Shown here one piece after another: positions 1 to 8,053 of a stretch of DNA of 8,053 nucleotides; position 1 is the stretch's first letter, and every line of letters begins with the position of its first letter. A model generated the notes under the pieces. That model had not been told where the DNA came from. It saw only the letters and a program-made list of their open reading frames with translations, and did no database searches. The stretch comes from Thermoplasmata archaeon (GTDB lineage Archaea > Thermoplasmatota > Thermoplasmata > Thermoplasmatales > Thermoplasmataceae): assembly GCA_021816385.1 (NCBI GenBank), contig JAKAYJ010000049.1, forward strand, positions 1 through 8,053, given 5' to 3'. Position numbers and translations under genes: made by a program.

Positions 1-403
1 ATATCTTACCAGGTCTTAAAGAACTAGTGGACCATTATAACTCTAGAAAAGTGGCCGAGGATTATCACAAGGCTTTCACAAAAGACTATGGCAATCCAGA
101 ATTGAAAAGAAAAGCTATTCAAAGATACGCTAAATTCATTTCGAGATTGAAACAAGGGGGCACATTCTGGACGCGGGTTGTGGTACTGGTAGATTTGTGC
201 AGTACTTCATCAAGAATGGTTTTACAGTGACGGGAATAGATAGTTCAAGCGCAATGATTGAGGTAGCCGCCAAGAACAACCCTTTGGCTGAATTCAAGGT
301 TATGGATATACGCCATCTAAATTTTCCATCGAATTACTTTGAGGGCATATGGAATGTTGTAACTCTGCTTCATTTAATCTCCGACTATGGCAGTTTTGCA
401 TAA
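1..403 (+). pseudogene. Broken SAM-dependent class I methyltransferase (frameshifted and 3'-truncated)
   Basis: This is the remnant of a small class I (Rossmann-fold) methyltransferase; the substrate cannot be told. The frame is open from the window edge, and a GTG at 27 is a possible start ahead of a typical beginning (DHYNSRKVAEDYHKAF). It is readable to about 160. The SAM-binding motif I, ILDAGCGTGRF, lies at 164-196 in another frame, so one base was lost (or two gained) at about 155-164, next to a run of five G. The second frame continues with GFTVTGIDSSSAMIEVA (acidic motif II, GID) and a motif IV region (FEGIWNVVTLLHL), then stops at 401-403. About 130 residues are recognisable, whereas such enzymes usually have 200 or more, so the C-terminal part is missing, probably lost to the insertion sequence that begins just downstream. 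Whether the gene starts at 27 or before the window is unclear. The fold is clear; a DNA-modifying role is not supported. Confidence 0.8.
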
Positions 404-480: not shown

Positions 481-1249
481 ATGGCACATCCTGACTGGGT
501 CCTGAAACATAAGAAAAAGGGAACCCTGATAATGACGAGAGATGACCGGTACTACCTATAGATGTATCCAGCCACCGGAATAGGGAGAAGAAAAGATCCC
601 AGCTCAGGACTGATGAATACCTTGAGAGGATCACCCCTGGCGGTTTAGTTGAGCCGAAGGCAAAGAGGATCCTCAAGCGATACGATCAGGTCACGGTGAA
701 TGAATATGGCTCCCAATTCCTGATCAACCACGTTTCCCGTGATATCCTGGACGAACTGAAGAAACGCCTTCCAGAGTGGAAGGAGATCTTCGCTTTCGCT
801 TGCATGAGGCTGCTGCACCAGTCTCCCATGAAGAATGTTGAATTCCACTACATCCCGTCATACATGTCCGAGATGCTCAGTGATGCACATGTTTCCCCTG
901 ATTCGCTTGATCCAATGCTGAGGAGGATCGGAATGGATCGGACTGCCCTGGCAGGTTTCATGAAAGCCCTCATGAATGATGACCGCTACCTTGCTGTCGA
1001 TCTCACGCATGTTTTGTCCATGAGCGAAGGGATCATATCTGCAACTCCGGGGCACAACAGCACGGATGAATTCCTTCCCCAGGTGCAGCTTCTCTTCCTC
1101 TTCTCCCTCGATCACGAGATGCCAGCATATTTCTGCATCCTCCCCGGATCAATAAACAGCGTGGCTTCCCTGAAAATCACCATGGAGGAATCCAGCGCCA
1201 GGAGGATAGTGCTGGTTGCCGACACAGGGTTTTATTTCTCCTCCAATCT
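481..1249 (+). pseudogene. IS4/IS1634-type transposase, 5' part, frameshifted and interrupted
   Basis: This is the N-terminal half of a DDE transposase of the IS4 superfamily (IS1634-like). It starts at ATG 481 (MAHPDWVLKHKKKG), and the first frame ends at a TAG at 559-561. Deleting one base at about 556-558 explains this: the next frame reads on as IDVSSHRNREKKRSQL, ...YLERITPGGLVEPKAKR and stays open to the IS3 insertion point. Two catalytic aspartates can be seen, in YLAVDLTHVLSMSEG (about 980-1025) and in IVLVADTGFYFSS (about 1207-1244). The glutamate-containing C-terminal half is missing. The last intact codon before the insertion is AAT at 1245-1247. If the IS3 element is removed and one AATCT is kept, the frame continues as SSNLSSLER at 2638 to about 2657, so the gene was split by that insertion. 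No functional transposase can be made. Confidence 0.8.
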
Positions 1250-1251
1250 AT

Positions 1252-1283
1252 TGTACTGTTTCTCACAGTTCTGGACAAATCGC
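1252..1283 (+). repeat. Terminal inverted repeat of IS3-type element (orfB-distal end)
   Basis: It begins TGTACTGTTTCTCACAG and continues TTCTGGACAAATCGC. It matches the reverse complement of 2605-2635 at about two thirds of positions, with one single-base gap, including an uninterrupted TCTGGACAAAT. It lies beyond the end of orfB. Confidence 0.75.
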
Positions 1284-1312
1284 AAAAAGAATTATGATAC
1301 GGTCCCTGCCGT

Positions 1313-2280
1313 TTCATCCCCCATTTTTTTTTCATCATATTGTTTTCCCACTTCAATAGCTTAACCTTCTCACTCCTTGCCTCCACCACTGCAAGCAGGA
1401 CATCATGATTTCCCCTGTAATACTGTGTCGGTGTGAGATAATTGAGCGATGAATGTCTCCGGTTATTGTTGTAATACTGGATGATTCTGGATATTTCAGA
1501 TCTGGCCTGTTCATAGTCTGTCAGTATTACTGGTGCAAGTGATTCCCGCATTATCTTGTTAGCCCTCTCAATGATGCCGTTCTGTTCAGGTATGTGCACT
1601 GATGATATTCTGTGTGAGATTGTTCTGCTTAAGCACTATCCTGAATTCCATGGCGATGAATGATGATCCATTATCCCCTGTTTAAGAGGTTCTGCAATTG
1701 AATCTTTCCTGAGTTTGTCTATTGCTGCCTGTGCTTCCATTGATACTGAATCTGCATCCATTGCTGTTAGAAGAGAATGGTGAACAATGCACCTGCTGTA
1801 CTGATCAATGAAAATGATGAGGTAGAAGAACCTGTCCCTGATTTTTATATACATTATATCGGTCTGTCATCTTTTGTCTGATGTCTTTGCATGATCCGGG
1901 CGGGTGGATTCCCAGATCGGACGATTCCATGGCGTTATGAGGTTGTGCTTCCACAGTATCCTGTAGAGTGCTGATGGGAACAGATATGCAATATCCTCGT
2001 CTATCATGGTACAGGAAATCTCCATGAAGGACATCGCGGGATGCTGGTGCTTGAATCCGTTAACAATCAATTCATCGTAATTTCTTATGGCCATGGGATT
2101 AAACCTTCCGTCAAGGAGGGGAGAGAATCATATCTGTGAATAGTACCAGAATCTTGATATCCCCAGCATGGAAAGTATCCCTGATACGGAATATCCAGCC
2201 CTTTCAACTGTGTTCGCCACTGTTCTGTCCATATCATAAAAGATGGATCTCATATCTGCCCCCTCCTCTGCAAGCATCAT
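1313..2280 (-). pseudogene. IS3-type transposase orfB (rve/DDE domain), several breaks
   Basis: This is the catalytic DDE integrase-fold subunit of the IS3 element, read from about 2280 downward (MMLAEEGADMRSIFYDMDRT). An in-frame TGA follows FWYYSQI at about 2130. The frame then continues as GRFNPMAIRNYDELIVNGFK down to 1867, where ...HAKTSDKR stops and a shift leads into QTDIMYIKIRDRF, with the first Asp. The second Asp motif, DNGSSF, is in yet another frame at about 1657-1675. After one more shift the Glu motif PEQNGIIERANK appears at about 1552-1590. The C-terminal RRHSSLNYLTPTQY is typical of the family. A run of nine A at 1325-1333 appears to have shifted the last frame: with one A fewer it would end in NNMMKKNGG and a TGA at 1313-1315, whereas now it runs through the inverted repeat into IS4 sequence. 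There are at least four disruptions. Confidence 0.8.
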
Positions 2281-2566
2281 CAGGGTTTTTTGATCTCCAG
2301 GTTCTTCGTTTCGACATCAGCAATGGTTGCCTTGAGCCTTGCAATCTCCTTATACTTCTCCGCCCTTATGCAATCCTCATCCACCTTCCTTCCGCGATTC
2401 TCAAATATTTCAGGTGCACTGTTCAGGAGCTGATCCTTCCAGTAGTAGAATCTTGCTGGCTTGAGATCATATTTCCTGCAGAGATCCGCCACTGATATGG
2501 TTTCGCTCATCCCCTAAATGACTATTTCAGTTTCTCCTCGGGTGTGTATTCCCTGTTTGCTGCCAT
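2278..2566 (-). pseudogene. IS3-type transposase orfA (helix-turn-helix protein), N-terminus broken
   Basis: This is the small DNA-binding protein of IS3 elements. The likely original start is ATG 2566, giving AANREYTPEEKLK. After that a one-base loss (about 2524) and a TAG just before the ATG at 2510 break the frame, which then continues cleanly as MSETISVADLCRKYDLKPARF with a helix-turn-helix typical of these proteins, followed by a charged helical tail (YKEIARLKATIADVETKNLE). It ends in KKP followed by TGA at 2278-2280, overlapping the orfB frame by ATGATG. A run of six A just before the stop would allow a -1 shift into orfB, which is how many IS3 elements make their fusion transposase. 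Overlapping stop and start re-initiation is the alternative. Confidence 0.75.
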
Positions 2567-2661: not shown

Positions 2662-3687
2662 AGGCCTTCCTTGAGGAGAACAAGGGATCGAGAAATTGGT
2701 ATTATGAGAGAGACCTTGGAATCAGGTATAGCAAGATCAATGATCACAGGGTGCCAATAGATCGCCACAAGGAATTCCAGAAAGCCTTGTTCGATAGATA
2801 TCAGCGTAACATCGGGATAGACGATCTTGTTGTATCCATGTACTCAAAGGGTGTGTCAACAAGGAAGATGGCTGAAATCCTCGAGGAATTATTCCACAAT
2901 ATCAAGGATCACGGAAATAACCGTGCCAGAAATCAATAAATAGAGATCCAGATCGCTGGACAGGAGGTACATCGCCATATTCGTGGATGCAGTATTCTTC
3001 TCACCTGACAGGGGTGCAAAAGAAATGTATCATATTTGCAATGGGAATACGGGGATCAGGAAACTATGAAATCCTTGGATTTTACATGAATACTGTAGAA
3101 AACGACTTCGCCTGTGGAAATATTCTCATGGACCTGCATGAAAGAAGCGTAGAAGAGCCTCTTTTTATTCATAGCAGATGGTTTACCGGGAATAGAGGAA
3201 GAAATAAAACAGCTATATCTAAGAGCTGATTTCAAGTTGTGTACAGTGCATGCATCAAGGAACTTTGAAGCGCAAGTGAGAGTGCAGGACAGGGATGAGA
3301 TCGATTTCGGTCTGAAGGGAATATTTCTCTCCAGATCAATGTAGGAGGCCATTGATCAGTTCACTGAGTTCAAGAGTAAACGGTTCTCGAATTACTCCGA
3401 GCCAGTGTACAATATGGATATGAATCTGGGAATATTGCTGAAGTACTATGATTATCCAGAATCCATCAGGAGATCCATACATTCAATGAATCTCATAGAG
3501 CGTATGAACAAGGAAATCCGGAGACGAATCAAGATCATCGATTCTCTCCCATCAGAGGGGAAGTGCCATAAAGATCATTTATCTCAGGGTGGCTGAAATA
3601 AATGAGCGATGGTCGCAGAGAATGTTGAGAGGATTCTATAAATGCATGGACGGGATCAGGAAAATGTTCCAGGAGAAGTATCCTTAA
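2655..3687 (+). pseudogene. IS256-family transposase, 5'-truncated and multiply frameshifted
   Basis: This is a mutator-type (IS256) DDE transposase whose parts are in all three frames. It begins internally (EIQAFLEENKG, then RYSKINDHRVPIDRHKEF) and reads VVSMYSKGVSTRKMAEILEE. A shift near 2900 gives RITEITVPEINK and a TAG at 2941-2943, followed by RRYIAIFVDAVFF with the first Asp. A shift near 3020 gives IIFAMGIRGSGNYEILGFYM. A shift near 3160 gives FIADGLPGIEEE with the second Asp and CTVHASRNFE. A TAG lies at 3342-3344, followed by SIRRSIHSMNLIERMNKEIR with the catalytic Glu. A last shift near 3563 leads to IYLRVAEINERWSQRMLRGF and the natural stop TAA at 3685-3687. The N-terminal 50-60 residues and the left end of the element are missing. 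The similarity is strong but no functional protein is possible. Confidence 0.9.
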
Positions 3688-3828: not shown

Positions 3829-4668
3829 ATGAAGTTGAATATTGAAATGGATCCATGGAAGAAAATCTGTGACGACCTCGGAATATCCGATGGGATGGAT
3901 TGGTTTGTCTCACCAACAATTTCAAGTAAGACTATAGGGAAACATGGCCGCCCAGAGAAGTTAATACCAATCTATACACGGCAGCAACTCCGTAAACACT
4001 CATTCCTCTCTTCGCATAAATTAATTCCAATACGGATCGGAAGGGGAGAAGCAGTTTTGACTAAAGCAAGCTTAATCCAAGATGCGCCAAAAAGTAGTCA
4101 AAGTGATTCTTTTTCAATCAAGTTATCTAGCAAAGAAGCAGACGCAGTGCAAAAATTTACGAAACTGACAAGTGACAACGAAGCCAAGTTACTTTCAATT
4201 GCATACAATCATGGTGTATTCAGCCGTGTCTTCAATAAAAGTGACAACTGGGATTACAGCCTTGGAATTTTTGGTAAGATGAACTTACCTAAGACTGAAA
4301 TTGGTTTAGTTGATTTCGAAGGAAACAAACAATTTTATGGACTAAGTATAAGTAATGTACAGTTCGAATTGGATTTTTCGTTCGAAGATGAGTCAAACAT
4401 ATTCATAATAGAAGCTAAAGTAGGGGTAACAAAAACATTTTCCTCTCTCCAACTTTTTTACCCTTATCTTTTCTTCAAGAAGTACGCTTTCGAATCAGAG
4501 AAGAAGATACGTCCCATTCTCTTATTAATGCAGAACTTTTCAAAAGAAAAAATACACTATAAAATACTGGAATATGGGTTTCGGAGATCAAACGTTCCGA
4601 ATTCTCTTTACCTGAAAGAAGAAACAAATGTTTCTCTTATCTTTTCTTCTCAATATTATTTCAGTTAA
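3829..4668 (+). CDS. Probable PD-(D/E)XK nuclease, restriction-endonuclease-like
   Basis: This is an intact 279-residue protein that I read as a DNA-cleaving enzyme of the PD-(D/E)XK fold. The central block is QFELDFSF (Asp182), about ten residues, then IFIIEAKVG (Glu195, Lys197), which is the hhD...hhExK arrangement of the active site. It is followed by SLQLFYPYLFFKKY and KKIRPILLLM, a pattern (Q-L-F/Y-YP, then a strand with R-P) that I associate with poorly characterised type II restriction-like enzymes. The N-terminal 100 residues (KLIPIYT, HKLIPIRIGRGEAVLTK) may bind DNA or recognise sequence. There is no signal peptide or membrane segment. No intact methyltransferase accompanies it; the one at 1-403 is broken and not clearly a DNA enzyme, so this may be a solitary nuclease or part of a split system. 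Its base composition matches the operon it faces, not the insertion-sequence block behind it. The fold call is moderate; a restriction role is inferred. Confidence 0.65.
   Translation: MKLNIEMDPWKKICDDLGISDGMDWFVSPTISSKTIGKHGRPEKLIPIYTRQQLRKHSFLSSHKLIPIRIGRGEAVLTKASLIQDAPKSSQSDSFSIKLSSKEADAVQKFTKLTSDNEAKLLSIAYNHGVFSRVFNKSDNWDYSLGIFGKMNLPKTEIGLVDFEGNKQFYGLSISNVQFELDFSFEDESNIFIIEAKVGVTKTFSSLQLFYPYLFFKKYAFESEKKIRPILLLMQNFSKEKIHYKILEYGFRRSNVPNSLYLKEETNVSLIFSSQYYFS
4665..4668. other. Shared TTAA: overlapping stop codons of convergent genes
   Basis: TTAA is its own reverse complement. Positions 4666-4668 are the TAA stop of the plus-strand nuclease gene, and 4667-4665 read backwards are the TAA stop of the minus-strand zinc-finger gene. 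No intergenic space is left for a terminator, so each transcript must run into the other gene or end within coding sequence. Confidence 0.9.
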
Positions 4669-5564
4669 TTTCGGTCATCCCTTTCACGATAATCTCTCAT
4701 GCGAATTCTAGTCGCAATAAGTTCTACGAATTTATCCATTGGTTCAGTCAAACGAACCGGGTCCGTTGAGTCAGGGTCGGGAATTTCTTGGAATATGGAA
4801 GTGGAATTTGGGTAAATGCCATAAAGCGATCCAACTAGTCTTGAAGAATTTCTTCCAGTTTGGTAGAAGGATCTTGTAATTTCCTCGCTAGTTACAAAAG
4901 CAGGATTTCCATCTTCGTTTATCTTTCTGTTAATCGCACCTGATATTAGTCTAAGTGGAACAAAGCCGATTCTGGGGAATGGAGTTCCTCTATAATCATC
5001 CCTAGTAGAAGTTGTAAGGTCTAAATTAATGAGCAAAAGCATAACTAGCAATGAAATTGATTGATTATATCTACGATAGTTCTCATCTGTAGGGTCGTCG
5101 GATAAACTAAGAATTTCATTTCCCGTCTTCAACCGCCTTCCAATTACAAAACTTATACCATCACCCTCCGAATCTTTTGGATATTCTATGTCAAAAATTC
5201 CATGTTCGGAAAATGCCTGTATTAATTTATTCTGTTTTGGAATATCAAGCTTGAGAAATGCGTCTCTGTTAGCTAGTTCCTGAACATGAATCGTTCCGTT
5301 CGTATTATCCATTAACGTATTCAATTCGATTTCAAAAATAAGGTTCTTTAAGCCAGAGTATCTATTATACATCCCCAAGAAATGGTTTAAAAACTCTAAA
5401 GCGCCCCACACCCCATTTATTGGATTAGAATCAGTCGGGTTGTCTAAAAAAGATTCAAGGAATTCAATAGTCTCTTCAACCGTGGTCTTGGCTGTGCTAC
5501 AATAATCGCATAACTCTCTCTCGGAGTTGCTTAAGTAACCCCTGCATATCTTACAATGAGCCAT
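4665..5564 (-). CDS. Zinc-finger protein with possible winged helix, partner of the SMC-like ATPase (function unknown)
   Basis: I do not recognise this 299-residue protein. It opens with a four-cysteine zinc site: Cys4, Cys7, Cys19 and Cys22 (CKIC, then CDYC), a ribbon or treble-clef type finger likely to bind nucleic acid or a protein. A helical stretch follows at about 28-85. Residues 91-142 (IHVQELANRDAF, NKLIQAFSEHGIFDIEYP, then a strand) look like a winged helix-turn-helix. A very hydrophobic helix at 169-181 (SLLVMLLLIN) is too short for a clear membrane span. A second possible helix-turn-helix lies around 224-250 (VTSEEITRSFYQTGRNSSRL). The C-terminus is charged. The gene is last in the operon and starts 14 bases before the ATPase gene ends, with a strong ribosome binding site, so its product is probably made in proportion to the ATPase. 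By analogy with the winged-helix partners of SMC proteins it may be a non-SMC subunit; this is inference only. Confidence 0.85.
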   Translation of the reverse strand: MAHCKICRGYLSNSERELCDYCSTAKTTVEETIEFLESFLDNPTDSNPINGVWGALEFLNHFLGMYNRYSGLKNLIFEIELNTLMDNTNGTIHVQELANRDAFLKLDIPKQNKLIQAFSEHGIFDIEYPKDSEGDGISFVIGRRLKTGNEILSLSDDPTDENYRRYNQSISLLVMLLLINLDLTTSTRDDYRGTPFPRIGFVPLRLISGAINRKINEDGNPAFVTSEEITRSFYQTGRNSSRLVGSLYGIYPNSTSIFQEIPDPDSTDPVRLTEPMDKFVELIATRIRMRDYRERDDRN

Positions 5565-7479
5565 ATGGAATCACCTCTGGTTCCCTCTTTCCACTTTTAG
5601 TTACAGTCATCACTATCAACTTGTTATTCTTTGAAGCGAAATTATGCAAATATTTGAGGATGTCTTGTTTTCTATCTTCGTCGAAGACTTCGTAAATTGC
5701 GTCGATCAGAACTACTGGCTCAGTTCCATAAGATTCTGCCATAGCTAATAGAACTGCTATTGCAATGGAGGCCCTTTCCGAGGCAGAGATACTCTTTGTT
5801 TCAAGTTCGACCCATCCAGAATCTCCTTTTCTATGCACTATAATGTTGAATCTGCCATCATTGGCATCCATTTGAATTCTCAACGGGAAATTGAGAGCTT
5901 TAATAACTCCTTCAATGTTATTATTGAAAATGACTGATAATTTTTTCTGTTCATCTTCCCTTAACTTTCTCGCCTCATCTGAAAGCTCCTTGATGGGTTC
6001 TATGAATAACCTATCAAGTTCCTTTAAGCTTTCGCTGTTCATCGCAAAGGGTATGCCAAATACATCTACACGTGATTTTGTTACTTGCTCAAGCTCGTTA
6101 ATTTTTGCTGTAACTTCTTTCTTCTGGTGTGCAAGAGTATCCAAATGCTTCTGGAGGTCTGGTCTTCCGCTTAACAAAATCTTCTGCAGTTCAAGTTTCT
6201 GATCTTCATAATCTGAAAGGGTCTGGGAAGTGTGATCTATATTGGATTTTAGTTTTTCCAATTCCCGTGCTCTGTCGGTCAGTTCCTGTTCAGCACCTTT
6301 TATTTCATTCTTTAGTTTTTTGATGTAGGATTCAAGCTGATCTTTCTCTTCTTTGGATCTTTTGCCCTGATCCTTTTCTCCATTCAATTTTCGTATTTCG
6401 TTCTCGACTTCATTCCTTTCCTTTGAAAAGTTATTGGACAAGGCCTCAAGTCTTGGTAGGCTTAACATTCCCTTCTCACACAAGGGGCAGGTTATTTCAC
6501 TATGGTTGTGTGTCTCAATCATTCCTCTTGCTTGAGAAACTAGGTCAAAATAAGCCAGAATTGAGGCTCTCTTATCTCGTAACTGTTCTATTTTCTCTTC
6601 AATTTCATTCAGTTCTTCTGTGCTACGCACCTCAATCTTACTTATAGACTCTTCGAATTGAGTTAGGCTGTTACTTTTTATCCTTATTGTTCGAGTGAGA
6701 TCATTGACTCTATTTTCAAGTGATAGCTGTTCTTCTTTGTCCTTAGAAATTTCATTACTCAACGATTTGATCTTATCTTCCAAAGCATTACTTTTGGTAG
6801 TAATCTCTTGATTTTCCTTTCTATTTTGTTCTTTGCTTATCTCTTTAAGCTCTTCACTGATAGTTGAAATGCTGCCATTAATCTTTATTAAATCTGCTTG
6901 CAGTTTTTCTTTGTTTTTTATGAGCTTAATTGACTCCTCAATTCTATTTGTGAGCTCATAACGTTTTCTTATTAATTCATCTTTTACCTGTTCAGCGCCT
7001 TCTATAATAGTCTGAAATGAGTCTAGTCTGTAGGATAATTCTTTGATAAACTTCAAGGCCATTCCTTGTCCTTCTTCAGTATCTAATGTCTTGTTCAAGA
7101 ATCTTGTAATCCAGCTAACGTCAGTCAAAATATTGGTAATGATAAACTTTGAATCTCCTTTATATGAACCTACCTTATCTTTGTATATATCCGCAGATTT
7201 ACTGTTCCCGTTTCTCTCTAATGAAATTTTACAGTGGTCAGAATTGATACTAATTATTCCTTGACTTTTTAGTGGGTCGTCTGGTATTAATCCCAAAAGC
7301 TTCTCTTCTCTTTTCAAATGATTTGGGGCATTCTCATTGTATGAGTATAGGGCAGTAATAGCTCTGACTATTGTAGATTTGCCAGTCGAGTTATCACCTT
7401 CAACAAGTACAAGCCCTTTCTCTGGGAACAAATATTCTTTGGATTTGAACTGCTGAACATTTGTAAGATTCAGTTTCAT
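5551..7479 (-). CDS. Short SMC/Rad50-like ATPase with zinc hook; catalytic Glu and H-loop His replaced
   Basis: This 642-residue protein has the head / coiled coil / hook / coiled coil / head layout of Rad50 and SMC proteins, but is shorter than either (Rad50 about 850-900, SMC about 1150). The N-terminal head has Walker A GDNSTGKST at 28-36. Antiparallel coiled-coil arms run over about 160-325 and 345-470, rich in E, K, L and I. At the turn, CPLC (Cys331, Cys334) matches the CxxC zinc hook by which two Rad50 molecules join. The C-terminal head has an ABC signature variant, SISASERASIAIAVLLAMA (563-581), Walker B VVLID ending at Asp593, and a D-loop VFDEDR (598-603). Where Rad50 has DE after Walker B, this protein has Asp593-Ala594, and the H-loop position in LIVMTVTKS (621-629) is Val626 rather than His. 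The protein probably dimerises on DNA with slow or altered ATP turnover. It overlaps both neighbours. I see a general resemblance to archaea-specific SMC-related proteins but cannot confirm it. Confidence 0.92.
   Translation of the reverse strand: MKLNLTNVQQFKSKEYLFPEKGLVLVEGDNSTGKSTIVRAITALYSYNENAPNHLKREEKLLGLIPDDPLKSQGIISINSDHCKISLERNGNSKSADIYKDKVGSYKGDSKFIITNILTDVSWITRFLNKTLDTEEGQGMALKFIKELSYRLDSFQTIIEGAEQVKDELIRKRYELTNRIEESIKLIKNKEKLQADLIKINGSISTISEELKEISKEQNRKENQEITTKSNALEDKIKSLSNEISKDKEEQLSLENRVNDLTRTIRIKSNSLTQFEESISKIEVRSTEELNEIEEKIEQLRDKRASILAYFDLVSQARGMIETHNHSEITCPLCEKGMLSLPRLEALSNNFSKERNEVENEIRKLNGEKDQGKRSKEEKDQLESYIKKLKNEIKGAEQELTDRARELEKLKSNIDHTSQTLSDYEDQKLELQKILLSGRPDLQKHLDTLAHQKKEVTAKINELEQVTKSRVDVFGIPFAMNSESLKELDRLFIEPIKELSDEARKLREDEQKKLSVIFNNNIEGVIKALNFPLRIQMDANDGRFNIIVHRKGDSGWVELETKSISASERASIAIAVLLAMAESYGTEPVVLIDAIYEVFDEDRKQDILKYLHNFASKNNKLIVMTVTKSGKREPEVIPYGSL
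5570..5577 (-). promoter_or_regulatory. Strong ribosome binding site of the zinc-finger gene
   Basis: On the minus strand, GAGGTGAT lies five bases before the ATG at 5564, within the last codons of the ATPase gene. It matches the 3' end of archaeal 16S rRNA well and fixes this start. Confidence 0.75.
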
Positions 7480-7643
7480 TCTTTTTCACCGGCCTGATAC
7501 TCATTCTTGTAAAAATCCACTAATAACTCCTTAATGAAATTAGCAACTTCACTCTTGCTATACTTTCCATTCGAAAACTGAGAAATGATCTTGTTTTTCA
7601 AGGAGTTTGACACTTCTTTCTTAAAATCGAAGATATCTTTCAT
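7476..7643 (-). CDS. Small 55-residue protein of the SMC-like operon (function unknown)
   Basis: This short gene fills exactly the space between two larger ones. It starts with ATG at 7643-7641, inside the stop of the upstream gene (ATGA), and ends with TGA at 7478-7476, inside the start of the ATPase gene (ATGA). A GAGGTG ribosome binding site stands five bases before its start. The protein begins MKDIFDFKKEVSNSLKNKII and ends in YQAGEKE. It is charged and looks helical (SEVANFIKELLVDFYKN), with no cysteines and no membrane segment. I recognise no family. Its position suggests a small helical subunit or adaptor that binds the ATPase or the upstream protein. The double stop/start overlap plus ribosome binding sites on both sides make a chance reading frame unlikely. 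Confidence 0.8.
   Translation of the reverse strand: MKDIFDFKKEVSNSLKNKIISQFSNGKYSKSEVANFIKELLVDFYKNEYQAGEKE
7486..7490 (-). promoter_or_regulatory. Ribosome binding site of the SMC-like gene
   Basis: On the minus strand, GGTGA lies six bases before the ATG at 7479, inside the end of the 55-residue gene. Together with the ATGA overlap it supports this start and translational coupling. Confidence 0.65.
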
Positions 7644-8053
7644 CAAAGCACCTCTGAAACCTGGATCTCGAAGTAAAGAGACTGTTCCTTGAAACCCTTA
7701 TATTTTTGTTCTACAACTCTCTCAATGGTTTCTTTAACTTTTTGTTTATTAGAGGAATTTACTCCTATGGCATCGTAAATTTCAACCCCACCTTTCGCCC
7801 TACCTTGTACCTTTTCTTTCTTCTCCCCACTTCTGTTAGCTGGCGACTCGGAATTATCTTCTTGGAGTGAAACGTACCTGATTAGCGCGTATTCCTTTGG
7901 AATAATCTCGGCATTTAAACCCTTCAATTCTTCATTGACGCTATCCACGAATTTATAGTTTCGTACAGCCCCTAACATTCTACGAAACTCATTCGCTGAA
8001 TAGCCTTGGTATCTTTTGAAATATACTATTATTTCTAGCCTATCATACGATTG
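7643..8053 (-). CDS. Partial protein, first visible gene of the SMC-like operon (function unknown)
   Basis: The frame is open from the right edge of the window, so 136 C-terminal residues are visible and the start lies outside. It reads SYDRLEIIVYFKRYQGYSAN, then EFRRMLGAVRNYKFVDSVNE. An ATG at 7978-7976 lies in the middle of this continuous, well-folded-looking stretch and is probably internal. After a compact first part come a polar linker (about EDNSESPANRSGEKKEKVQG) and a C-terminal segment (GVEIYDAIGVNSS, then a long charged helix and YFEIQVSEVL). I do not recognise the family, and no catalytic motif, zinc site or membrane segment is evident in this part. Its stop overlaps the start of the 55-residue gene by ATGA, so it belongs to the same transcription unit. 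The operon promoter is not in the window. Confidence 0.8.
   Translation of the reverse strand, partial: QSYDRLEIIVYFKRYQGYSANEFRRMLGAVRNYKFVDSVNEELKGLNAEIIPKEYALIRYVSLQEDNSESPANRSGEKKEKVQGRAKGGVEIYDAIGVNSSNKQKVKETIERVVEQKYKGFKEQSLYFEIQVSEVL
7649..7654 (-). promoter_or_regulatory. Ribosome binding site of the 55-residue gene
   Basis: On the minus strand, GAGGTG lies five bases before the ATG at 7643. It is the main evidence that the small frame is a translated gene. Confidence 0.65.

Follow-up and report, generated by a model that had tools for sequence, protein, structure and literature searches.

The stretch of 8,053 nucleotides (nt) analyzed here, referred to below as the window, comes from a Thermoplasmata archaeon (GenBank assembly GCA_021816385.1, contig JAKAYJ010000049.1) and contains an operon of four tightly coupled minus-strand genes, g1 to g4. 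The third gene, g3, encodes a zinc-hook SMC-like ATPase of 642 amino acids (aa), which, judged from its sequence, is clearly related to the archaea-specific SMC-related proteins (ASRP), the family of the chromosome and cell-shape proteins Sph of haloarchaea and coalescin (ClsN) of Sulfolobales. We describe it as a divergent, distant relative and do not file it as a member, because its score on the ASRP model was below the curated cut-off. We see about an even chance that the four genes specify a small SMC-like machine that has this divergent Sph/coalescin relative at its core and is equipped with partners of its own.

The four-gene operon and its translation signals

Among the open reading frames of the window, four genes were consecutive and overlapping on the minus strand: g1 (7643..8053; 136 aa visible, with the 5′ end cut by the window edge), g2 (7476..7643 and 55 aa when read from an ATG, or up to 7646 and 56 aa when read from a TTG), g3 (5551..7479), and g4 (4665..5564; 299 aa, with an N-terminal Cys4 set and, in a low-confidence model, possible winged-helix segments). 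The first-pass annotation had reported overlaps of 4, 4, and 14 nt. The values for g2/g3 (4 nt, ATGA) and g3/g4 (14 nt) were reproduced, whereas the g1/g2 overlap is 1 nt (TGATG) when the 55-aa g2 starts at the ATG at 7643, and reaches 4 nt only with the TTG start at 7646, which gives the 56-aa product. A Shine-Dalgarno match preceded each internal start on the minus strand: GAGGTG (6 bases, 7649..7654) for g2, GGTGA (5 bases, 7486..7490) for g3, and GAGGTGAT (8 bases, 5570..5577) for g4. With every position of the window, on either strand, taken as the background, a match of the same length or longer occurred at 0.72% (g2), 4.6% (g3), and 0.04% (g4) of positions, and the g3 signal on its own is modest evidence. 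Because the genes overlap and such matches precede g2, g3, and g4, the tight four-gene operon that had been proposed is well founded.

The g3 ATPase and the ASRP family

The motifs of g3, all read on the minus strand, follow the ASRP layout: the Walker A motif GDNSTGKS (7375..7398, residues 28–35) is N-terminal, and the ABC signature-like SISASERA (5770..5793, residues 563–570) and the Walker B motif PVVLIDA (5698..5718, residues 588–594) are C-terminal. The zinc hook CPLC is at 6478..6489 (residues 331–334), and the sequence, together with matches to coiled-coil type profiles, points to a coiled coil between the ATPase motifs. GDNSTGKS, CPLC, and SISASER were invariant in five aligned g3 sequences, as were C331 and C334, which align with the CxxC of other ASRPs.

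The Walker B motif of g3 reads VVLIDA, with Ala at the position where the catalytic glutamate is expected, and this glutamate was replaced in all five g3 sequences compared, one of which is identical to that of the window (Ala in four, Thr in one). An alignment of eight comparison ASRPs gave a similar picture, in that the glutamate was absent in seven and D-E was kept only in Methanomethylovorans hollandica. The catalytic position reads D-S in the Sph2, Halorussus, and Halolamina proteins, D-G in Sph1, Haloarcula, and Halorubrum, and D-A in Haloterrigena, as in g3. The seven glutamate-less proteins (Ser, Ala, or Gly) are all from haloarchaeal plasmids (L016, L017, L018, and L021–L024). In ABC ATPases, the loss of the Walker B glutamate is expected to slow hydrolysis and to favor the ATP-closed state, and we infer that g3 would likewise hydrolyze ATP slowly and favor that state. 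No mention of the absence of this glutamate in ASRPs was found in the sections of PMC9389158 consulted or in a term search of it.

In a scan of g3 against 18,950 NCBIfam models, the best model was NF045487 (ASRP), with 194.8 bits, an E-value of 2.6e-57, and a match covering model positions 1–591 of 593, whereas the next models (SMC and Rad50) reached ≤ 33.4 bits. For calibration, the same model gave 652.8 bits for Sph2, 458.7 for Sph1, 429.6 for the M. hollandica ASRP, and 35.2 for E. coli SbcC, and it gave no match to RecN at E ≤ 0.001. A head-domain tree of 13 rows, in which two of the four further relatives of g3 (P0008 and P0010) were included and ClsN was not, placed g3 and this pair with the M. 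hollandica ASRP and seven ASRPs of haloarchaea, apart from SbcC and RecN (support 96/97).

Several points weigh against this interpretation of g3. Its 194.8 bits are below the curated cut-off of NF045487 (300 bits). At E ≤ 0.001, the model matched 14 of 14 control genomes and exceeded the cut-off in only two of them, so that weak matches to it mean little, and the size of the score counts rather than the E-value alone. The head-domain tree had a long-branch warning and just two outgroups, E. coli SbcC and RecN. When scored on a profile built from the heads of the remaining ASRPs, g3 reached only 46.0 bits (RecN, 12.7; SbcC, −18.5). Finally, E597 of g3 might stand in for the absent glutamate.

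The first-pass annotation had called g3 a short zinc-hook SMC/Rad50-like ATPase. The Walker A motif, the CPLC hook, and the profile matches bear out the zinc-hook SMC-like part of this description, but the nearest family is ASRP and not Rad50, the best Rad50 model giving 32.8 bits against its cut-off of 700. A Rad50-like module for DNA repair or DNA-end processing with unusual partners is one alternative to be weighed, and we regard it as quite unlikely. It would explain the zinc hook and the Rad50-like layout, and it draws on matches to AAA_23, AAA_27, and AAA_29, which were weak and all below the Pfam cut-offs, and on a match to the PHROG family phrog_77 (SbcC-like subunit; 3.5e-11). Set against these are the far higher ASRP score and the absence of any Mre11-like domain among the Pfam matches of the five genes scanned, the region upstream of g1 being outside the window. 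Active Rad50 also differs from g3 at the Walker B glutamate.

According to PMC9389158, ASRPs have an N-terminal Walker A, a C-terminal Walker B, and, in the vast majority, a zinc hook; they are spread over broad archaeal lineages with flanking genes that have no apparent consensus, and the members include coalescin and Sph, neither of which represents the diversity of the family. The similarities of g3 to ASRPs extend to its size, the N- and C-terminal ATPase motifs, the probable coiled coil, the CxxC hook, the SxSxSER-type signature, the near-full-length profile match, and the Walker B motif lacking glutamate. The differences are the score under the curated cut-off, indels in both the N-terminal head and the coiled coil, the three other partners, and the lack of an RdfA match among the visible neighbors.

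RdfA is the usual neighbor of an ASRP. PMC10869688 reports that 42 of 50 SMC-like proteins in 24 haloarchaeal genomes adjoin RdfA-family genes, and that rdfA and sph3 mutants are both disk-only, both genes being needed for rod shape. We examined 10 plasmid records, a non-random sample picked as haloarchaeal or as giving matches. All 11 ASRPs above the cut-off adjoined an RdfA-family match (one of these matches was below its own cut-off), and 2 of the 13 RdfA matches had no directly adjacent ASRP. One record had neither family above the cut-off and one had RdfA but no ASRP above the cut-off; the pairs are not all independent, since one species contributed two of the plasmid records and another record has two equal-scoring copies. 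The gene after the M. hollandica ASRP (pMETHO01, L019 9904–10527, annotated as hypothetical) is RdfA-like, with a PF21811 match of 6.5e-6 and 26.5 bits against a cut-off of 27. This neighbor, just under the cut-off, suggests that the Sph–RdfA pairing extends beyond haloarchaea to methanogens.

The operon resembles the RdfA–Sph3 pair of Haloferax volcanii in that an SMC-like ATPase is accompanied by a small adjacent partner, and Cys near the N-terminus is found in most of ten aligned RdfA-family proteins too. It differs in that g1, g2, and g4 gave no RdfA match: PF21811 was found in none of them by hmmscan, a custom hidden Markov model (HMM), or hhalign, the region upstream of g1 being outside the window. 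The HMM, made from 10 RdfA-family proteins, gave −0.6 bits for g1, −1.0 for g2, and −2.0 for g4, and among 200 shuffles of g2 at least nine exceeded 1 bit (best, 4.9). In hhalign, the values against RdfA were 0.1% (g1), 0.1% (g2), and 2.3% (g4). A likeness noticed by eye, of g2 to a helix motif of RdfA and of the N-terminal CKIC of g4 to the CCKI of RdfA, was rejected on these HMM and hhalign scores.

Partner genes and the question of defense

The three partners had been described as unrecognized, and this agrees with our profile scans of Pfam, PADLOC, and PHROG type, in which g1, g2, and g4 had no significant family match. A search with the 136 visible residues of g1 returned seven related protein clusters of 137–151 aa, four of them of 142 aa; because the related clusters are mostly of the latter length, about 6 N-terminal residues of g1 probably lie outside the window. 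A model of g1 predicts a ferredoxin-like fold that is interrupted by a disordered insert, the fold being only moderately supported. The composition of g2, which had no significant match in the profile scans, suggests a helical protein.

The first-pass annotation had described g4 as a zinc-finger and possible winged-helix protein. The zinc-finger part is supported by a CxxC-x11-CxxC set (5499..5555, minus strand; C4, C7, C19, and C22), which was invariant in five aligned sequences with identities down to 47%, and a sub-threshold RecR_ZnF match covers residues 3–23. The winged helix was not established: it appears in a low-confidence model and is uncertain. A sixth sequence, P0004 (related to window 4665–5666), was excluded from the g4 alignment as a chimera. 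On its contig of 1145 bases, residues 1–130 of g4 are followed by sequence of the g4/g3 junction read from the opposite strand. This is either a fold-back chimera, produced during amplification or assembly, or an inversion that arose naturally.

These features of g4 bear on two further interpretations. In the first, the genes form an operon by position only and the small proteins act independently without forming a complex, g4 being, for example, a transcription regulator; the weak structural matches of g4 are indeed largely to MarR-type regulators. The tight overlaps and the probable linkage on other contigs described below argue against this, and we judge it unlikely. In the second, g4 would combine a zinc knuckle with two winged-helix segments and work in the manner of a KITE subunit (as Nse1/Nse3 or JetB do), and g1 and g2 would form a minimal bridging module. 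The zinc-hook ATPase, Rad50-like and impaired in hydrolysis, would then be the core of a complete SMC-type complex, intermediate in kind between the Rad50 and SMC-kleisin classes. The SMC-kleisin-KITE systems (Smc-ScpAB, Nse1/3/4, and JetABC) are counted among the closest known systems, but we consider this specific assignment very improbable.

The conservation of the gene set was assessed from relatives of the individual genes. A search that scored 7992 candidates sharing the most words gave at least five protein matches to g3; The g3 alignment did not include P0006, which is identical to the window. The longest contigs listed for a g3 and a g4 homologue are equal in length in two cases, P0008 with P0002 (14257 bases) and P0010 with P0003 (3866 bases), and the sources match within both pairs. 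A g1 and a g3 homologue (P0023 and P0009) likewise have a longest contig of the same length, 3525 bases. These equal lengths suggest that the members of each pair are on one contig. The clusters left unpaired by such linkage were two of five for g3, three of five for g4, and six of seven for g1. Gene linkage beyond the window is thus supported indirectly, and conservation of the four as a set is shown only in part. No related locus was found in genome contigs scanned with g3 and with the g4 alignment. Viral contigs gave no relative with g3, with the g4, g3, and g1 alignments, or with a mixed ASRP alignment. Plasmids and phages gave no relative in tblastn searches with g3, nor did plasmids searched with P0005 and P0021 or phages searched with the M. 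hollandica ASRP. Each pattern-based scan relied on one to six short peptides, which makes these negatives weak.

A role in defense had also been proposed. In a Lamassu- or ABC-3C-like system (LmuABC, DdmABC), g3 would be an LmuB-like sensor of DNA structure, g2 the middle component, and g1 or g4 the effector, and the nuclease gene and insertion-sequence (IS) remnants beside the operon would mark a defense island; we regard this as possible but doubtful. The operon resembles these systems in its zinc-hook ABC ATPase of about 650 aa with an altered Walker B motif, its multi-gene arrangement, and its small middle gene. PMC10586767 describes LmuB proteins that are some 650 aa long, in many cases have a zinc hook, and generally show a Glu-to-Gln change, and the PADLOC LmuB model PDLC03859 matched g3 at 3.1e-21. 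However, this model scored E. coli SbcC higher (83.3 bits) than g3 (74.2), and it also matched Sph1 (69.7), Sph2 (50.3), and the M. hollandica ASRP (46.2). We therefore rejected the PADLOC match as evidence for a Lamassu assignment, g3 being no closer to the best LmuB model than SbcC is. The operon also differs from Lamassu in lacking an LmuA- or LmuC-type match: g1, g2, and g4 matched no PADLOC family (in a scan with no positive control for LmuA/LmuC), and no effector domain was recognized within the operon. No MC model was among the Pfam matches of g1, g2, and g4 at E ≤ 1, although the 55-aa g2 could easily be missed. Pfam includes a model named MC4, an ABC-3C middle component and the one MC model whose presence in Pfam was checked. 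The proposed defense role was thus not upheld by the matches, and, resting on context, it is possible but unproven.

This context, a nuclease gene and IS remnants, was found as had been described. The nuclease gene (3829..4668, plus strand) encodes a restriction-like protein with a DUF6997 match of 5e-23 and a weak PADLOC match to a type II restriction enzyme (5.4e-5). It is convergent with g4, the stop codons overlapping; we saw no sign that it belongs to the operon and did not count it there. In favor of a defense context, an E. faecium plasmid has a distant relative (25% identity) immediately behind its gene for a DNA adenine methylase; in the window, no DNA methylase partner was recognized among the scanned frames. 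At the left end of the window (1–403, plus strand), part of a class I methyltransferase gene remains, with a Methyltransf_11 match of 1e-8 in the frame 197–403 and an apparent frame break before this frame. The IS remnants, all below the NCBIfam curated cut-offs, comprise IS1634 (696–1364, plus strand), pieces of IS3 (within 1177–2510, minus strand), and pieces of IS256 (within 2751–3596, plus strand). An inverted repeat of 43 nt with 79% complementarity (1258–1300 and 2588–2630) flanks the IS3 remnant and perhaps represents its terminal repeats.

Proposed mechanism and significance

As for the small SMC-like machine on a divergent Sph/coalescin relative, we infer that the products of g1 to g4 would form a complex. 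Two g3 subunits would be linked at the zinc hook and also at their heads, with ATP sandwiched between these, and the dimer would hold DNA as an ATP-closed clamp, with slow or no ATP hydrolysis. The g4 protein, with its Cys4 set and perhaps a winged helix, would tie the clamp to DNA, whereas g1 and g2 would bind the heads or the coiled coil and so regulate loading or release, in the place that RdfA takes beside Sph. The role of such a complex would be to organize DNA or cell architecture, as an accessory and lineage-restricted function, and we consider a role in nucleoid or cell architecture more likely than one in defense. We regard the operon as probably encoding an uncommon version of a known type of machine; as a defense system it is unproven. 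Together with its three closely coupled partner genes, the divergent ASRP relative provides a compact set for reconstitution. Furthermore, with the Walker B glutamate absent in the g3 group and in seven of eight ASRPs, and kept in that of M. hollandica, the question of whether these proteins are ATP-locked clamps or motors becomes testable.

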